This document shows, in pieces, positions 32,361-41,962 of a DNA stretch of 64,000 bases; the first letter of the stretch is position 1, and each line of letters opens with the position of its first letter. This DNA is from Limibacillus halophilus (GTDB lineage Bacteria; Pseudomonadota; Alphaproteobacteria; Kiloniellales; CECT-8803), in contig NZ_JACHXA010000004.1 in NCBI RefSeq assembly GCF_014191775.1, positions 248,001-312,000 on the forward strand. The letters are read 5' to 3'. The translations under genes were made by a program, and so were the position numbers. The notes below the pieces were generated by a model. It searched no databases. It was not told the origin of the DNA and was given only the letters and a program-made list of their open reading frames with translations.

Positions 32361-32639
32361 CTAGCGGTCGTTGTCCTCATTCTTAGACGACGGTATCCCG
32401 GCCACAATATCGTCATGCCCGCTTCGGTTGCTCACAAACACCAAAACCATGAGTCCGCCGCCTACGAGGAGTGTTAGAATACTACCGCCGATCAATGCGA
32501 TGAACCCGTGAGTGCTCATCTCGCCGCCGTCCATCGAGACCCAAATCCGATATGCCCCCACGACGGAAACGACAAGCAAGATGCCCAGCGTGAGAGCCAG
32601 AGCAACTGACTTAAAAGATATTCTGCGTTCTTTACTCAT
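32361..32639 (-). CDS. Small two-span membrane protein, unknown function
   Basis: The ATG at 32639 overlaps the end of gpmA by 8 bases and gives 92 residues. Two transmembrane helices (about residues 12-32 and 45-68, the latter with [18 protein letters not shown]) flank a short loop; the C-terminus is acidic. An upstream ATG at 32663 would add eight residues inside gpmA. Translational coupling to gpmA is likely. No family was recognised. Confidence 0.6.
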
Positions 32640-33387
32640 TGTTTGCTTTGCCTTGATTGGCAACGGCTAAAGCGGCGGCTTCTATTGCCGCTGTATCCCC
32701 AAGGTATCGCTTATCCAAGACGGTCAAAGCTTCACCAAATCGGTAAACCAATGGAACCGCTGTTGGAATATTCAGGCCTGTTATCTCTTCCTCGGACATG
32801 CCGTCTAGATGTTTGACGATCGCACGGATGCTGTTTCCATGTGCGGCAACGAGTATGGTCTCTCCTGCAGTTAGGTGTGGTTCAATCTGGGCGCGCCAGT
32901 AGGGCAACACACGATCAAGAGTCATCGACAAACTTTCACCGACAGGCAGTTTCTCAATCGGTATATTCTTGTAGCGTCTATCCTTTCCAGGATGTCCGTC
33001 ATCGTTCTCTGCCATCATCGGAGGCGGTGTATCAAAACTGCGACGCCAAATCAGAACTTGATCTTCACCGTACTTAGCTGCTGTTTCAGGCTTGTTTAGT
33101 CCTTGCAATGCGCCGTAGTGACGTTCGTTAAGCTTCCAACTATGCTCAACGGGGACCCACATTTGGTCCATTTCGTCGAGTGTAATCCAAAGCGTCCTAA
33201 TGGCGCGCTTTAAGACGGAAACAAAAGCTCGATCGATCTGAATTCCTTGTTCCAACAAGAGCCTACCCGCCGCTTCGGCCTCCAAGCGCCCTAGTGGTGT
33301 GATATCCACATCAACCCAACCGGTGAATCGGTTCTCAAGGTTCCATTGGCTTTGTCCGTGGCGTAGCAGTATCAGAGTCCCAGTCAC
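32632..33387 (-). CDS. gpmA: 2,3-bisphosphoglycerate-dependent phosphoglycerate mutase
   Basis: The 251-residue enzyme interconverts 3- and 2-phosphoglycerate in glycolysis and gluconeogenesis. It has the phosphohistidine motif [20 protein letters not shown] near the N-terminus, the conserved [14 protein letters not shown] segment and the second histidine in [17 protein letters not shown]. The length fits the family. GTG start with GGGAGG nine bases upstream. It is divergent from the hydrolase at 33580. Confidence 0.95.
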
Positions 33388-33579
33388 TAAGTGAGCCTCC
33401 CAGTATGATCAAGGAAATCCTTATGGAACATGGTCGGACCCGCATTTCAAGCGCCCATTGGTCGCAGATGCTGTTAGCCTCCAATAAAACCGGCGTCACA
33501 ACGCTTCATTTGACGTGTGGCGACAATTCTATGCGACGATTTCAGTTAACCCGTCTTCGTAGCGGTGAGAGCAAATCTG

Positions 33580-34455
33580 ATGTTTGAAAGTTTCTCTGAG
33601 CAAGTAGTCAATACCGACGGAGCGGATATTCTGGTCCGTTTGGGTGGCTCAGGCCCACCGTTGTTACTTTTACACGGCTATCCTCAGACAGGTGCAATGT
33701 GGGCAAAAATAGCCTCTGATCTTGCCAGTAGTTTTACGGTCGTTGTACCCGATCTTCGCGGTTATGGACGATCATCAAAACCAGCCAGCGCGGACGATCA
33801 CAGCCCTTATGCCAAGCGGGCCATGGCTGCGGATCTGGCCGAGGTCATGACTTACCTTAATTTTGAAACTTTTAATTTAGCCGGACACGATCGCGGAGCG
33901 AGAGTCGCCCACCGGCTTACCTTGGATTTTCCGAACCGAGTTAAAAAACTTGCCGTGTTGGATATTGCTCCGACGCTCACCATGTATGAACGAACGGACA
34001 TGGAATTTGCCACAGCTTATTATCATTGGTTCTTCCTTATCCAACCATTTGATCTTCCCGAACGTATGATTGGCGCCGATCCTGAGTATTATCTCGAGAA
34101 GAAACTCGGTCAGTGGTGTAGAACCGAAGGGACTTTCTCAGGCCCGGCTTTGGCAGAGTACAAGCGCTGTTTCTCTGATCCACGCACAATTCACGCGAGC
34201 TGTGAAGACTATCGAGCGGCAGCTACAATTGACCTTGAGCATGATAAAGCCGATATCCAGCGTAAAATCACCTGCCCATTGCTTGTCCTTTGGGGGGCGA
34301 AAGGAGTTGTGGCGCGGACTTATGATGTTCTGGGAGTTTGGCGCGAACGCGCGGACGATGTCCGAGGATACGCGCTCGAATGTGGTCATTTTGTTCCGGA
34401 AGAGGCTCCAGATGGAACGCTTCAAGCGTTTCAGCATTTTTTTGGACCAGCGTGA
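33580..34455 (+). CDS. Haloacetate (fluoroacetate) dehalogenase-like alpha/beta hydrolase
   Basis: From the ATG at 33580 the protein has 291 residues. Family members hydrolyse haloacetates, some cutting the C-F bond. The key positions of the Burkholderia FA1 fluoroacetate dehalogenase appear nearly in register: nucleophile Asp104, Arg105 and Arg108 (GHDRGARV), Asp128 (LDIAPT), halide-pocket His149-Trp150 (YYHWFF), Tyr211 in CEDYRAAATIDLEHD (Tyr212 in FA1) and His270 (H271 in FA1). HGYPQ and DLRGYGRSSKP are also typical. A GTG at 33565 would add five residues. It stands alone, divergent from gpmA; substrate remains to be tested. Confidence 0.85.
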   Translation: MFESFSEQVVNTDGADILVRLGGSGPPLLLLHGYPQTGAMWAKIASDLASSFTVVVPDLRGYGRSSKPASADDHSPYAKRAMAADLAEVMTYLNFETFNLAGHDRGARVAHRLTLDFPNRVKKLAVLDIAPTLTMYERTDMEFATAYYHWFFLIQPFDLPERMIGADPEYYLEKKLGQWCRTEGTFSGPALAEYKRCFSDPRTIHASCEDYRAAATIDLEHDKADIQRKITCPLLVLWGAKGVVARTYDVLGVWRERADDVRGYALECGHFVPEEAPDGTLQAFQHFFGPA

Positions 34456-34524: not shown

Positions 34525-36003
34525 ATGACCTCGCCTCGTGATACTCAACGAGATACCAAGAGCAAGCGCCGATCGCGCCCGGTAAAGGCGAGCAATCCGC
34601 TTGTTGTCCGTTTACGCCGTTACTTACTTGCGGGCGTCTTGGTGACAGCGCCGATCGGCATCACGCTCTGGCTTATCTGGCAGTTCATTTCCTTTGTGGA
34701 TGATAAGATCGAGCCGTTGGTTCCTGCACGCTGGGATCCACAAACATACCTCGTCGAGTTTTTCAATTTACCCTTCGACATTCCCGGGTTTGGCGTCCTT
34801 TTTGCGCTGCTTGGGCTGACTTTTATCGGCTTCCTTGCTGCCAACTACATTGGCCGGCACATCATGAGGTTCGGTGAAAATTTGCTCAATCGAGTTCCCG
34901 TTGTTCGTAGTATCTACGGATCCATCAAGCAGGTGCTTGAAACTCTGATTAATCAGGAAACCTCTGCTTTTAGGCGCGTTGTCTTGGTTGAGTATCCGCG
35001 TGAAGGAAGTTGGGCAGTCGGCTTTGTAACCGGTGAAACCGAAGGGGAAGTTCAGCGATTAACTGATGCGACCACCATCAACGTCTTTATACCGGCCACC
35101 CCAAACCCCACGACGGGATTCTTACTGTTCATCCCAAAAGGCGAGGTTCATGACCTTGATATGTCCGTAGAGGCCGGTGTTAAGCTTGTAGTGTCGGGCG
35201 GCATCGTCATGCCACCTGCCAGCGCAAAGAACTCAAAACAAGCAGACCTGCGTCTTTCCAAAGAAATGCTGAAGCCTGAAGTGACTGAGGTGCGCAGGAC
35301 CGGGCTTTTGACACGGCTGCGAAACTATTTCCTAACCGGTATCCTGGTCACTGTTCCATTCGGCATTACGGCTTGGCTTGGGTGGGAGTTTCTCGGGTTT
35401 ATAGACAGCAGAGTTGTACCTCTCATACCGGCAAACTGGAACCCGGAACATTACTTACCGTTCTCTATTCCCGGTCTTGGAGTCATTGTACTTCTCACCG
35501 GATTGATATTGGTTGGCATGACCGCAGCCGGGTTCCTTGGTCGAGTAATGGTCCGGACCGCCGACCGCATGCTAGGAACATTGCCGGTTGCCCGTTCGAT
35601 TTACGGAGCGACAAAGCAAATCATTGAAACCATCATTGCCCAGCAGTCCAACGCCTTTCGCGATACGGTCCTAATTGAGTATCCAAGGCGCGGGTCCTGG
35701 GCAATCGGCTTCATTACGGGCCAAACCGAAGGCCACGTTCAGGACGTGACACAAACGGAAATGGCCAATGTCTTCCTGCCTACAACACCAAACCCAACCT
35801 CAGGTTTTTTGCTGTTCATTCCCAGAGAGGAAACCATTCTCCTGGATATGAGCGTTGAAGAAGGTCTGAAAATGGTGATCTCGGGGGGAATCATCACACC
35901 TGCCGACCATGGAGCCGATGATGACGGGGACGATGAACCAGATATGTCATCGGACGCACCCCAAGAAGCTCAAACAACCTCCGGTGTCCGCAAGCGGGCG
36001 TAA
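34525..36003 (+). CDS. Tandem DUF502 membrane protein
   Basis: The 492-residue protein contains two full DUF502 units (about residues 30-235 and 260-455). Each starts with a basic segment and two transmembrane helices (RRYLLAGVLVTAPIGITLW and RNYFLTGILVTVPFGITAW), then VPVVRSIYGSIKQVLET or LPVARSIYGATKQIIET, a VLVEYPREGSWAVGFVTG-type block and PNPTTGFLLFIP. DUF502 proteins are normally single units of roughly 200 residues with unknown function. The C-terminus is acidic and disordered. Strong ribosome site AAGGTGAAGAG. It is convergent with recG. Confidence 0.88.
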   Translation: MTSPRDTQRDTKSKRRSRPVKASNPLVVRLRRYLLAGVLVTAPIGITLWLIWQFISFVDDKIEPLVPARWDPQTYLVEFFNLPFDIPGFGVLFALLGLTFIGFLAANYIGRHIMRFGENLLNRVPVVRSIYGSIKQVLETLINQETSAFRRVVLVEYPREGSWAVGFVTGETEGEVQRLTDATTINVFIPATPNPTTGFLLFIPKGEVHDLDMSVEAGVKLVVSGGIVMPPASAKNSKQADLRLSKEMLKPEVTEVRRTGLLTRLRNYFLTGILVTVPFGITAWLGWEFLGFIDSRVVPLIPANWNPEHYLPFSIPGLGVIVLLTGLILVGMTAAGFLGRVMVRTADRMLGTLPVARSIYGATKQIIETIIAQQSNAFRDTVLIEYPRRGSWAIGFITGQTEGHVQDVTQTEMANVFLPTTPNPTSGFLLFIPREETILLDMSVEEGLKMVISGGIITPADHGADDDGDDEPDMSSDAPQEAQTTSGVRKRA

Positions 36004-36012
36004 AACAAGCTT

Positions 36013-38094
36013 TCAACCGGATCGTATATAACGTACCGCAGCATCGCGCTCAAAGAGATAGAGGAGGGTGCGTAATGCTGCTCCGCGCTTGCTGTCCATC
36101 CAGCTGTCATTCTCGACAATCAACTTGGCATCACTTCTGGCAATCGCAAGCAGATCATCGTGCTGTGTCAGATCGGCGACACGGAACGAAGGCATGCCGC
36201 TCTGTCGGGTGCCCAACACCTCTCCTGCACCTCTCAGTCTCAAATCTTCCTCTGAAATAACAAAACCATCTTCGGTTTCACGCATGATCTCCAGGCGCCT
36301 GTGCGCAGTTTCTCCTAAAGGCTTTTGATACAATAACAAGCAAACTGACTGATCACCGCCGCGTCCGACCCTGCCGCGCATTTGATGCAACTGAGAAAGT
36401 CCAAAGCGTTCAGCGTGTTCGATAACCATGACCGTTGCATTCGGTACGTCGACGCCCACTTCAATCACAGTTGTAGCAACAAGGACAGCCAACGACCCGG
36501 CTTTGAAGTCGGCCATGATCGAGTCTTTCTCCGCGCTTTTCATCCTCCCGTGAACCAGTCCTACTCGGTCTCCAAAAACCTTTCGCAGCGTCTCATAACG
36601 CTGATCAACCGCGGCCAGATCGCTGGTTTCGGACTCCTCAACGAGCGGACAAACCCAATACGCCTGCGCACCGCTCTCTACTGCCCGTCGCAAACCATCT
36701 ACGACTTCAGATAATCGCTCTATATCCAAGGTTCTCGTATCGACCGGTTTACGTCCAGCTGGCTTTTCTAGAAGACGTGAGGTGTCCATATCACCATAAG
36801 CAGTCAACATAAGGGTTCGTGGAATTGGTGTTGCAGTCATGACGAGGACATCCACATCCTTCCCCTTGCCGGCAAGCATCAAGCGTTGATGAACGCCAAA
36901 CCGATGTTGCTCGTCGATCACGGCCACCGCGAGCTTGCTGAAATCTACGCCGTCTTGAAACAAAGCGTGGGTGCCAACCGCGATTGCTGCCCGGCCAGAC
37001 GCAATTGCTTCAAGTGTTTGCCGCCGGTCTTTTGCCTTGTCCTTACCGGTCAAGAGAACAACTTCAATTCCAAGGTGCGCAGTGAGTGGACGCAGGGTTT
37101 CATAATGTTGGCGCGCCAATATTTCCGTTGGCGCCATCAAGGCGGCCTGCTGCCCGGCCTCGACGGCGATGAGCATCGCTAAAAGCGCAACCACGGTCTT
37201 GCCGCTACCAACATCACCCTGGAGCAACCGCAGCATCCTCGATGGTTTGGCAAGATCTTGCTCGATCTCCATAACCGCTTCCGCTTGTGACCGGGTGAGC
37301 GAGAAGGGTAAGGCTTCCTTTACGGATGATCGGAGCGACCCGTCTCCCTTCAAAGATTTGCCGGGTGTGCGCCGTGCAGCTTTTCGTACGATCAAAAGCG
37401 CCAGTTGGTTGGCAAGAAGTTCGTCGTAAGCCAATCGTTGCCGGGCGCACGAACCTGGCTCTACATCGCTGCTGTTCGCTGGATTATGAGCTTGGAGCAA
37501 AGCATCGGACCAACTCGGCCAATTTCGCTTCTGAACAAATACCGGATCAAGCCACTCAGGAAGAACGGGTACATGCCGTAGAGCCATCCTGATGGCCTTG
37601 GCCACAGTTTTTTGAGGTAGGCCAGCGGTGAGGGGGTAAATCGGTTCCAAGCGAAGCAGTTGTCCAACCTCATCCGGTTTAACTACATGATCCGGGTGAG
37701 TCATTTGCGCCTGGTGATTGAAAAGCTCAAACCTGCCGGATACCGCAACTTCTTTGCCGGCAGGAAGAATCCGTTCCAAATAATCCGGGCGCGCATGAAA
37801 GAAAATCAACTCAACACGACCGGTTTCATCTTCGCAGACAACTTTGTAAGGCTGGCGGCGGCTTGCGCCGGGACGATGCTCACATACACGAACCAGCAAG
37901 GTGGCAACGCGCCCGGGTTCAGCCTCGCCAATTTTTGGGCTGTACCGACGATCAATTACATTAATGGGAAGGTGCCAGCACAGGTCCAGCACTTTTGGCC
38001 CGGCTAGTTGCTCAAAAAGTTTAGCGAACCGAGGACCGATTCCCGGTAGGTTGGTAAGGGGTACGAAAAGCGGATAAAGCGGTTCAGGTCGCAA
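36013..38094 (-). CDS. recG: ATP-dependent DNA helicase RecG
   Basis: The 693-residue helicase remodels stalled forks and branch-migrates Holliday junctions. It has the N-terminal wedge/OB domain (about 60-160), Walker A LLQGDVGSGKT, the DEQH box VIDEQHRFGVHQR, motif VATTVIEVGVDVPNA and QMRGRVGRGGDQS near the C-terminus. Start TTG at 38094 with GAGGAAG five bases upstream. It is divergent from sdhE by 85 bases, the usual alphaproteobacterial recG/sdhE/mfd neighbourhood. Confidence 0.96.
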   Translation of the reverse strand: MRPEPLYPLFVPLTNLPGIGPRFAKLFEQLAGPKVLDLCWHLPINVIDRRYSPKIGEAEPGRVATLLVRVCEHRPGASRRQPYKVVCEDETGRVELIFFHARPDYLERILPAGKEVAVSGRFELFNHQAQMTHPDHVVKPDEVGQLLRLEPIYPLTAGLPQKTVAKAIRMALRHVPVLPEWLDPVFVQKRNWPSWSDALLQAHNPANSSDVEPGSCARQRLAYDELLANQLALLIVRKAARRTPGKSLKGDGSLRSSVKEALPFSLTRSQAEAVMEIEQDLAKPSRMLRLLQGDVGSGKTVVALLAMLIAVEAGQQAALMAPTEILARQHYETLRPLTAHLGIEVVLLTGKDKAKDRRQTLEAIASGRAAIAVGTHALFQDGVDFSKLAVAVIDEQHRFGVHQRLMLAGKGKDVDVLVMTATPIPRTLMLTAYGDMDTSRLLEKPAGRKPVDTRTLDIERLSEVVDGLRRAVESGAQAYWVCPLVEESETSDLAAVDQRYETLRKVFGDRVGLVHGRMKSAEKDSIMADFKAGSLAVLVATTVIEVGVDVPNATVMVIEHAERFGLSQLHQMRGRVGRGGDQSVCLLLYQKPLGETAHRRLEIMRETEDGFVISEEDLRLRGAGEVLGTRQSGMPSFRVADLTQHDDLLAIARSDAKLIVENDSWMDSKRGAALRTLLYLFERDAAVRYIRSG

Positions 38095-38467: not shown

Positions 38468-41400
38468 ATGCCCAAAGATTTTCTTACGCCGGGTGTCGCA
38501 TGGATACTCGAACATGCACTCGAAGGCCCTGATGCGTGGTTTCTAGCCGGAGAAAGCCCGTTAGTACCGGTGGAGGGTGTTCAATTTCATGTTGCGCGAG
38601 ACGATGCGCGGTTAGCCCGCCTTGCTGAGTTAATCAGGTTCTTTGCACCAAATAGGGAGGTTATAGAGTTTCCTGCGTGGGACTGTCTCCCCTATGACCG
38701 TGCTGGTCCGCACAAAGACATCGTCGCGCAGCGGTTATCGGCTCTTTCGCGATTAAAGGCCCTTAGCTCGGACAGCAATTTAGTTGTTTTGACCACGGTC
38801 AACGCCGTAATGCAACGCGTCGCACCTCCAAGCCTGTTTGATGGACGCCTCCTTCATTTGAAAAAAGGGAGCCGGATTGGAACCAACGATCTTCAGAGCT
38901 TTCTGACAGAAAACGGATTTCTGAGGGTCGATACGGTAGGCGAACCCGGGGAGTTTGCGGTTCGAGGGGGCATTCTGGATATATACCCGTCCAACGCAGC
39001 GTTGCCGCTTAGGTTGGATTTCTTTGGTGATGAACTAGAACGGATACGGCCTTTCGACCCTTTGACGCAGATTTCGGAAGGTAACTGTCCGGATTTTACC
39101 CTGATGCCAGTCAATGAACTTATTCTAGACGAAGCTAGCAAAGGGCGCTTTCGCACGCGATATCGAGAAATTTTCGCAACGACGGGCATTGGTGATCCCT
39201 TATACGAAGCGGTTTCGGAAGGGCGACTGTACCAAGGGATGGAACACTGGCTGCCACTGTTTCACGAGCGGATGGATACGGTCTTTGACTACTTGCCAGA
39301 TACTGCGGTAATCACGTTGGATCCACGCTTTGATGAAGTTCGGGAAACACGCTTGGAAACAATTTCTGATTTCTACCAAGCGCGACAGCAAACACCGGTG
39401 ATTGAAACGAAAGCCTCCGCCGATTCCGGCCGCTACCATGCGCTTCCACCGAATTCTTTGTACCTAAGCGATACAGAAATTCGCGACAGGTTGGCACAGT
39501 TTTCCTGCGGACAACTTTACGAGTTTGCGGCGCCGGATACAGATGACCATGTGAAAGTATCGCTCGGCGGCGGCCCCGGCATGAACTTTGCTGAAGAGCG
39601 TGCACTCGGCTCCACCGCGGTTTATGAACGTTTAAAAAGGGAACAGCGGGTCGCTGCTGGTTCCGGCCACCAACTGGTGGTGACGGCATCCACACCGGGG
39701 CGCCGAGAACGCTTAGCCGGATTGCTTCACGAACATGACCTTACTTCTGTGGTGTCGATTGATACTTGGCAAGAGGTGAAGGATCTTCCAAAGGGCGCCA
39801 TTGCTGCTATTCCATTGGGGAACGAGCAAGGCTTTGAAATTGATGGCAAGCTGTTTATTAGCGAGCAGGACTTGCTTGGCGAACGAATCGGTCGTTCCGG
39901 ACTTCAGAAGCGCAGAGCCGACAATTTCCTTCGAGAAGTTTCGAGTATTTCCGAAGGCGACCTCGTGGTTCATGTGGATCATGGAATTGGGCGCTACGAA
40001 GGCTTGGTCACTCTGGATGTAACCGGAGCCCCACATGATTGCCTGAAAGTGGTGTATCACGGCGGTGATAGGTTGTTTGTTCCGGTCGAGAACATTGATG
40101 TCCTATCACGCTATGGTTCGGATGGCGCGCAAATTGAACTGGACCGATTAGGCCAGGGTCAGTGGCAGGCGAGGCGCGCTCAGGTAAAAAAACGACTTTT
40201 GGAAATAGCAAAAGAGCTAATGTCGGTCGCGGCGAAGCGCGCCCTGCATCACGTAGATCCCGTCCAAATTCCGGCTGGAGCTTATGAAGATTTCTGCGCG
40301 CGTTTTCCCTACCCGGAAACTGATGACCAACTATCTGCGATAGCTGCAGTTGCCGAAGATCTCGCCTCTGGCAAGCCCATGGATCGTTTAATTTGCGGCG
40401 ATGTTGGTTTCGGCAAGACAGAAGTAGCCCTAAGAGCAGCTTTCTTAGTTGCATTGTCGGGCCAACAAGTTGCCATCGTTGCGCCAACCACGCTTCTGGC
40501 GCGTCAACATTATCGCACTTTCCTTGAGCGCTTTGCAGGCTACCCGGTTCGCATAGGAATGCTTTCACGATTGACGAGTCAACGCGATGCGACACTGGTT
40601 AAAGATGAATTGGCAAAAGGGACATTGGATATCGTTATCGGCACACATGCCCTCTTAGCAAAGTCGGTAGCAATTCCACGGTTAGGGCTGGTTATCGTTG
40701 ATGAGGAGCAGCACTTCGGCGTGAAACAGAAGGAGCGGATGAAGCAGTTACGCGCGGATGTCCATGTATTGACGCTGACGGCTACACCCATTCCCCGAAC
40801 CCTTCAACTGGCTATGTCCGGTTTGCGGGAAATGAGCTTGATCGCAACACCGCCCGTCGACCGCCTTGCAGTCCGAACCTTCGTTTTGCCTTATGACAAC
40901 GTCATCATTCGAGAGGCAATTCTGCGAGAGCACAATCGCGGCGGGCAGGTTTTTTATGTTTGCCCAAGAATTGAAGACCTCCAGCAACTAGCCGATGGCC
41001 TGGATAAGTTAGTTCCCGAGGTTCGTTTGGCTGTTGCCCACGGACGCATGAGCGCGACAGAACTCGAAGCCGTAATGAGCGGCTTTTATGAGGGTCGCTT
41101 CAATGTCCTTTTATCGACAAACATCGTTGAATCGGGACTGGACATACCGACAGCCAATACACTCGTCATTCACCGTGCCGATATGTTTGGCTTAGCCCAG
41201 CTCTACCAATTACGGGGCCGGGTAGGGCGTGGAAAGCTGCGCGGTTATGCCTACCTTACACTTCCAGCTAGTCGCCTCTTAAACAAAACCTCAGAGCGGC
41301 GCTTGCACGTCATGCAGACACTCGATCATCTTGGGGCTGGCTTCACGCTGGCCAGTCACGACATGGATATCAGAGGTGGCGGCAATTTACTGGGAGAAGA

Positions 41401-41962
41401 ACAGTCTGGGCATGTTCGGGAAGTGGGCGTGGAGCTTTATCAACAGATGCTTGAGGAAGCCGTAGCCACAGTGAAAGACGAAGGCTTTAGATCAATGGAT
41501 GGCGAGGTTAACTGGAGTCCGCAGATTAATGTCGGCACGTCCGTACTTATCCCAGATAGTTACGTTTCCGACTTGGATGTGCGCTTGGGACTTTATCGCC
41601 GCCTTTCCGAGTTACAAAACACGCCAGAGGTCGAAACATTTGCAGCGGAACTAATCGACCGGTTCGGTCCTATTCCCGAGGAAGTCGAGAACTTGCTCGA
41701 GATCATGCAGATCAAACAACTTTGCAGACACGCCGCCGTAGCAAAAGTGGATGCCGGCCCAAAAGGTGCTGTGCTGTCGTTCCACCAAGATAGTTTCGCA
41801 AACCCCGGCGGCTTGATCGAATTTATTTCCAAACAGGTGGGAACCGTTCAATTGCGCCCCGACCACAAGCTCGTATATCGGCGAGGTTGGCCGGGTGCAC
41901 GGGAGCGCCTCCGGGGTGTACGCAACCTCATTAGCCAACTAGCTGCCCTAGTTGCTGCCTAA
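38468..41962 (+). CDS. mfd: Transcription-repair coupling factor Mfd
   Basis: The 1164-residue translocase removes RNA polymerase stalled at DNA damage and recruits UvrA. The order is: UvrB-homology region (about 25-350; GEFAVRGGILDIYP), the CarD-like RNA-polymerase-interacting domain (GDLVVHVDHGIGRYEGL, about 495-560), the RecG-like motor (ICGDVGFGKTEVALRA, DEEQHFGVKQKERM, TNIVESGLDIPTANT, QLRGRVGRGKLRG) and the C-terminal UvrA-masking domain (LRLGLYRRLSEL-type segment near 1040). Full length and intact. It converges on the FrnE-like gene with a 4-base gap. Confidence 0.97.
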   Translation: MPKDFLTPGVAWILEHALEGPDAWFLAGESPLVPVEGVQFHVARDDARLARLAELIRFFAPNREVIEFPAWDCLPYDRAGPHKDIVAQRLSALSRLKALSSDSNLVVLTTVNAVMQRVAPPSLFDGRLLHLKKGSRIGTNDLQSFLTENGFLRVDTVGEPGEFAVRGGILDIYPSNAALPLRLDFFGDELERIRPFDPLTQISEGNCPDFTLMPVNELILDEASKGRFRTRYREIFATTGIGDPLYEAVSEGRLYQGMEHWLPLFHERMDTVFDYLPDTAVITLDPRFDEVRETRLETISDFYQARQQTPVIETKASADSGRYHALPPNSLYLSDTEIRDRLAQFSCGQLYEFAAPDTDDHVKVSLGGGPGMNFAEERALGSTAVYERLKREQRVAAGSGHQLVVTASTPGRRERLAGLLHEHDLTSVVSIDTWQEVKDLPKGAIAAIPLGNEQGFEIDGKLFISEQDLLGERIGRSGLQKRRADNFLREVSSISEGDLVVHVDHGIGRYEGLVTLDVTGAPHDCLKVVYHGGDRLFVPVENIDVLSRYGSDGAQIELDRLGQGQWQARRAQVKKRLLEIAKELMSVAAKRALHHVDPVQIPAGAYEDFCARFPYPETDDQLSAIAAVAEDLASGKPMDRLICGDVGFGKTEVALRAAFLVALSGQQVAIVAPTTLLARQHYRTFLERFAGYPVRIGMLSRLTSQRDATLVKDELAKGTLDIVIGTHALLAKSVAIPRLGLVIVDEEQHFGVKQKERMKQLRADVHVLTLTATPIPRTLQLAMSGLREMSLIATPPVDRLAVRTFVLPYDNVIIREAILREHNRGGQVFYVCPRIEDLQQLADGLDKLVPEVRLAVAHGRMSATELEAVMSGFYEGRFNVLLSTNIVESGLDIPTANTLVIHRADMFGLAQLYQLRGRVGRGKLRGYAYLTLPASRLLNKTSERRLHVMQTLDHLGAGFTLASHDMDIRGGGNLLGEEQSGHVREVGVELYQQMLEEAVATVKDEGFRSMDGEVNWSPQINVGTSVLIPDSYVSDLDVRLGLYRRLSELQNTPEVETFAAELIDRFGPIPEEVENLLEIMQIKQLCRHAAVAKVDAGPKGAVLSFHQDSFANPGGLIEFISKQVGTVQLRPDHKLVYRRGWPGARERLRGVRNLISQLAALVAA

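Follow-up and report, generated by a model that had tools for sequence, protein, structure and literature searches.

The gene at positions 33580–34455 of a 64,000-nucleotide stretch of the Limibacillus halophilus genome (contig NZ_JACHXA010000004.1, positions 248,001 to 312,000; hereafter the window) raises the question of whether its product is a fluoroacetate dehalogenase able to hydrolyze the carbon–fluorine bond, as a preliminary description had proposed from the sequence, and whether such an ability would be a trait of an environmental strain or the common property of a protein subfamily. The features that bear on the answer are as follows:

33580..34455, + strand: coding sequence of a NOS0089/Alr0039-type dehalogenase, an alpha/beta-hydrolase of the fluoroacetate (haloacetate) dehalogenase family, 291 aa (by homology and predicted model)
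33889..33894, + strand: codons of D104 (nucleophile) and R105 (carboxylate binding); roles known from the FA1/RPA1163 family (passages of PMC11022551)
33901..33903, + strand: codon of R108 (carboxylate binding)
33961..33963, + strand: codon of D128 (catalytic acid of the Asp-His-Asp triad)
34024..34029, + strand: codons of H149 and W150 (halide pocket; role from passages of PMC11022551)
34114..34116, + strand: codon of W179, equivalent to H1 Trp180 and RPA1163 Trp185 (mobile pocket residue; role from passages of PMC12955510)
34210..34212, + strand: codon of Y211 (equivalent to FA1 Tyr212; halide pocket)
34387..34389, + strand: codon of H270 (equivalent to FA1 His271; predicted to activate the water that frees glycolate)
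34525..36003, + strand: downstream neighbour of 492 aa with two DUF502 domains, a conserved partner starting 69 bp past the dehalogenase stop
36013..38094, - strand: recG, conserved neighbourhood member
38468..41962, + strand: mfd, conserved neighbourhood member

The gene and its active-site residues

The open reading frame (33580–34455, + strand) is intact and encodes 291 residues from an ATG. An alternative in-frame GTG lies five codons 5' of it, at 33565, and is the less likely start because the ATG at 33580 matches Met1 of Alr0039 without a gap. Scans for promoters and terminators gave results at chance level (2 promoter-like sites against a chance mean of 2.1 and 4 terminator-like sites against 3.2). 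Co-transcription with the DUF502 gene is not established, since one of the terminator-like hairpins (34413–34433) lies within the 3' end of the dehalogenase gene.

The window protein has D104, R105, R108, D128, H149, W150, Y211 and H270, and direct counting along the FA1 chain 1y37 places the corresponding residues at D104, R105, R108, D128, H149, W150, Y212 and H271. Thus, the Asp nucleophile (D104), His base (H270) and Asp acid (D128) of fluoroacetate dehalogenases (EC 3.8.1.3) are all present, as are the two arginines that hold the carboxylate in FA1 (R105 and R108) and the His-Trp-Tyr halide pocket. The preliminary description had put the first six residues at the FA1 numbers and Tyr211 and His270 one residue off, and both statements are exact, the offset corresponding to a single alignment gap between the two numberings; this reading of an active site, made without tools, was therefore right.

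According to passages of the review PMC11022551, Trp150 of FA1 is required for cleavage of the C–F bond and dispensable for that of the C–Cl bond, and passages of PMC12955510 describe Trp180 of H1 as critical in growth selections on a substrate abbreviated FP. Positions 243/244 are V/V in the window protein, Q/M in H1 and I/I in NOS0089; the V/V pair is not alarming because NOS0089, with I/I there, is listed as active in the review passages.

Family membership, predicted fold and generality of the residue set

The top sequence match in the PDB was 3qyj (Alr0039 from Nostoc), which aligned with residues 1–288 at 410 bits and E = 4e-122, a value that puts the residue match beyond chance. In local alignments the identity to Alr0039 was 63.8% over 287 residues without gaps, followed by 9c9f (54.9%), DAR3835 (53.7%), 4nvr (52.4%), RPA1163 (50.0%), FA1 (47.0%) and DehH1 (46.0%), and the full eight-residue set occurs in all of these aligned references except 4nvr, from Salmonella, in which Trp occupies position 149. 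PDB chains of the dehalogenase family scored between 250 and 410 bits, including 4bat, 4b9a and 4baz from P. aeruginosa, which their depositors named probable epoxide hydrolase, whereas the first clear outsider, a soluble epoxide hydrolase, scored 136 bits and Cif-like proteins 136 bits or less.

Passages of PMC11022551 equate Alr0039 with NOS0089, list fluoroacetate, difluoroacetate and two other compounds as its substrates, and liken its structure to that of RPA1163; one sentence loosely places NOS0089 among the L-2-haloacid dehalogenases. The subfamily of the window protein thus already includes a tested defluorinating member, as listed in those passages.

General family models are less specific. 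The only Pfam families above cut-off were Abhydrolase_1 and Abhydrolase_6, which are general alpha/beta-hydrolase families, and in NCBIfam the window protein reached no cut-off and found no fitting equivalog. Several other assignments were rejected: haloalkane dehalogenase equivalogs scored far below their cut-offs (NF002938, 53.5 bits against 241; NF002873, 43.3 against 466), the NCBIfam matches of the window protein include no HAD family (TIGR01428) of the kind that marks HAD-type L-2-haloacid dehalogenases, and the residue at the nucleophile elbow is D104 and not the Ser of a serine esterase.

The same genome yielded seven other matches, all weak alpha/beta hydrolases; none of the six that were aligned has the residue set, four of these alignments stopping short of the later active-site positions. 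Separately, a HAD-type II haloacid dehalogenase scoring above its curated cut-off (G000:C2:102805-103383) is a second possible dehalogenase of this genome.

An AlphaFold2 monomer model, whose input alignment combined the window protein with 55 of its 80 nearest named relatives, had a mean pLDDT of 95.0 and a pTM of 0.93. It superposed on 3qyj with a Z score of 49.7 and an rmsd of 0.9 Å over 291 aligned residues, in agreement with Foldseek, and scored Z 48.3 against DAR3835 and Z 45–47 against the RPA1163 and FA1 entries. The predicted model therefore has the fold with cap domain of fluoroacetate dehalogenases; the fold match by itself is no proof of function, and the argument rests on the pocket residues.

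All eight residues are kept in the 80 nearest named loci (the best 80 of 315 encoding a relative), a sample biased by its retrieval with query peptides, one of which spanned H149–W150. They are also kept in 29 of 29 best loci among relatives of the order and in all 8 loci that a class-wide sample added. Among 49 further homologues from the order (43–59% identity) the set is complete in 28 and incomplete in 21: ten have Tyr-Phe-Phe in place of His-Trp-Tyr, eight have Glu and one Ser at position 128, one has Trp at 149, and one has lost several residues. The residue set is informative because it is lost in these other subfamilies of the same order. It is a marker of subfamilies, and in that of the window protein it is general, so that its completeness is real but does not distinguish the strain.

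Two of the variant groups are worth recording in their own right. The ten Tyr-Phe-Phe homologues (L155, L165, L167-L172, L174 and L176) retain D104, R105, R108, D128 and H270, and judging by these substitutions their subfamily probably catalyzes a reaction different from that of the dehalogenase. The catalytic acid Asp128 is replaced by Glu in eight homologues (L150-L154, L157, L159 and L161), one of which (L150) has RPA1163 as its nearest PDB entry.

Chromosomal setting and metabolic context

The order-level sample comprised 58 genomes (that of L. halophilus and others of the same family and order). A dehalogenase homologue (E <= 1e-60) occurs in 43 of them and DUF502 in 57, which indicates that DUF502 does not need the dehalogenase. 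In 23 of the 58 genomes the homologue lies 5' of DUF502 on the same strand and at most 3 kb away, the DUF502 domain starting 299–442 bp past the homologue in 20 cases and 921, 938 and 2526 bp past it in the other three. These DUF502-adjacent homologues are 61–74% identical to the window protein (itself excluded), and another three that reach 60% identity or more have no DUF502 next to them; 57 of the 80 homologue places listed in the 58 genomes are not DUF502-adjacent.

Class-wide, a match at E <= 1e-100 was obtained in 10 of 96 genomes. Seven of the eight loci from outside the order have DUF502 within 1 kb downstream, and the eighth has none in the stretch examined; the pairing thus occurs in 9 of the 10 class-sample members, counting two order members already included in the 23. 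In the set of 80 named loci, 13 have DUF502 downstream, four of them being the same sequences as order relatives, and many of the contigs end too early to tell. The pairing (34525-36003 in the window; relatives L089-L114 and L193-L200) recurs across the class, and recG and mfd lie beyond DUF502 in most of the longer stretches that contain it.

The sole genome of the same family also shares gpmA and a histidine kinase on the upstream side (L100/L120). A 100-aa membrane-like protein that overlaps the end of gpmA (32361-32663), for which only a sub-threshold MgtE match was found, is conserved there as well (65% identity over 63 residues).

A tree was computed after removal of rows that covered fewer than about 240 residues of the query or contained a stop within the aligned region. 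Its backbone is weak, with 51 of its 155 inner branches open and with flags on long branches, and placing the 31 DUF502-adjacent rows on this tree takes at least 4 changes, against a mean of 6.6 for shuffled labels, with 3 of 500 shuffles as low. No single clade is claimed for these rows, given the weak backbone and the number of changes required.

A place that is kept across families and orders argues for long chromosomal residence with frequent loss instead of a recent degradative gain, and points to an old, chromosomal and mostly vertically inherited gene. Recent horizontal gain was considered on the basis of composition and set aside: the differences in G+C content (50.6% in the gene against 52.7% in the window; at third positions, 44.9% against 49–56% in four neighbours) are small and indecisive, and the conserved neighbourhood speaks against it.

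Fluoride-related genes were sought around the locus. A tblastn search with two CrcB proteins found no crcB in the flanks of the gene and, over the loci searched, matched only the genome's own CrcB locus (L118, L178) and plasmid pUO1, many of the flanks searched being short (about 1.5 kb for loci from the genome search and at most 6 kb for named contigs). The single CrcB of the genome lies on another contig and its presence is uninformative, since CrcB occurs in 55 of 58 relatives. The genome search detected no fluoride riboswitch, Rfam gave no match within the window, and no regulator or uptake gene stands beside the dehalogenase, unlike dehH1 on pUO1. The suggestion that defluorination is a trait of an environmental strain consequently found no support in this context, with neither crcB nor regulator nor uptake gene and with the gene in its conserved place by DUF502, recG and mfd. 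The gene is an ordinary representative of a known family, closely related to a tested enzyme and not peculiar to one strain.

As for the fate of glycolate, the best glcD-like protein of the genome scored 530.8 bits, under the curated cut-off of 567.9; a second match next to it suggests glcDE at the level of sequence similarity, and malate synthase G scored above its cut-off. The genome could therefore use glycolate, and none of these genes is specific for fluoroacetate.

Proposed reaction, alternatives and characterized relatives

The window protein, which is probably cytosolic, is very probably a fluoroacetate dehalogenase-family alpha/beta-hydrolase that converts haloacetates, fluoroacetate included, into glycolate and halide. 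Asp104 would attack the halogen-bearing carbon of a haloacetate whose carboxylate would be held by Arg105 and Arg108, and the leaving halide, including fluoride, would be stabilized by His149, Trp150 and Tyr211. Water activated by His270 and Asp128 would then hydrolyze the glycolyl ester on Asp104 to release glycolate and halide, and the glycolate could pass to the glycolate oxidase-like enzyme and malate synthase of the genome. Residue roles given without a source in the list above are established from studies of FA1, H-1 and RPA1163. The scheme as a whole is modelled on established work with the same three enzymes, in part as presented in passages of PMC11022551 and PMC12955510.

Hydrolysis of fluoroacetate in vitro appears likely in view of the 63.8% identity to the tested NOS0089, the full pocket and the 0.9 Å superposition of the predicted model. 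The claim that this residue set gives C–F hydrolysis accordingly holds in part: homology to NOS0089 and the complete pocket favour it, but the set is necessary and not proven sufficient, being general in a subfamily whose members, according to passages of PMC11022551, dechlorinate too. The same passages state that characterized members also take chloroacetate and bromoacetate, and H-1 iodoacetate as well, so that the principal substrate may be one other than fluoroacetate. In the cell the enzyme most likely serves in standing defence against haloacetates or in their scavenging, perhaps for detoxification.

It is possible, if somewhat doubtful, that the natural substrate is chloroacetate or bromoacetate and that C–F cleavage is a side activity or absent. 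This would suit the range of haloacetates accepted by characterized members and a gene found in many genomes at a stable position on the chromosome, without an adjoining gene for fluoride export; against it, Trp150, which the review passages describe as required in FA1 for C–F and dispensable for C–Cl cleavage, is present in 80 of 80 close relatives (one search peptide contained it), and the closest tested homologue is listed there as defluorinating. A native substrate other than a haloacetate, with an Asp-His-Asp reaction tied to the neighbouring DUF502 membrane protein and dehalogenation as a promiscuous activity, is unlikely: conservation of the DUF502 pairing at both order and class level would fit this, but the protein retains both carboxylate-binding arginines and a complete halide pocket, for which a small halo-acid is the best fit, common gene order may merely reflect shared descent, and DUF502, present in more of the 58 genomes than the dehalogenase, does not need it. 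That an epoxide hydrolase or a serine esterase-type hydrolase has been misread as a dehalogenase is highly improbable, for although the fold superfamily is the same and Pfam sees only its general families, the nucleophile is Asp and not Ser, soluble epoxide hydrolase and Cif-like proteins stay at or below 136 bits against 250–410 for dehalogenase-family chains, and NCBIfam cut-offs are unreached.

Returning to the haloacetate dehalogenase reading, the conserved place by DUF502, recG and mfd suggests that enzymes capable of C–F cleavage can be old residents and not recent answers to pollutants, and the native role of the subfamily is thereby open to testing by knockout. An improbable extension is that, within the class, a long-standing functional partnership links the DUF502 membrane protein to the Alr0039-type dehalogenase and serves general haloacid or halide handling, in which DUF502 might move or sense the substrate or the halide; if so, C–F cleavage would belong to a standing housekeeping defence instead of pollutant degradation. 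Literature searches returned, by title, no work on DUF502 that concerns bacterial dehalogenases and only unrelated papers on the native function of the dehalogenase.

Among known systems, Alr0039/NOS0089 (Nostoc sp. PCC 7120, 3qyj) shares all eight residues and the fold at 0.9 Å rmsd, but it is cyanobacterial and has I/I where the pocket loop of the window protein has V/V (243/244). RPA1163 (Rhodopseudomonas palustris, 3r3u) has 50% identity and the same eight residues, whereas it lies on another branch of the tree and has K in place of A146 and I/A in place of V243/V244. DAR3835 (Dechloromonas aromatica, 8sdc) and D4B (Delftia acidovorans, 9c9f) share 54–55% identity and the same residues, yet belong to other branches, and D4B has R at the position of W179. 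FAc-DEX FA1 (1y37) and DehH1 (plasmid pUO1), at 47% and 46% identity, also have the eight residues; the DehH1 gene, however, is carried by a conjugative plasmid and has both a LysR-type regulator and crcB within 3 kb, whereas the gene in the window stands beside DUF502 and recG.
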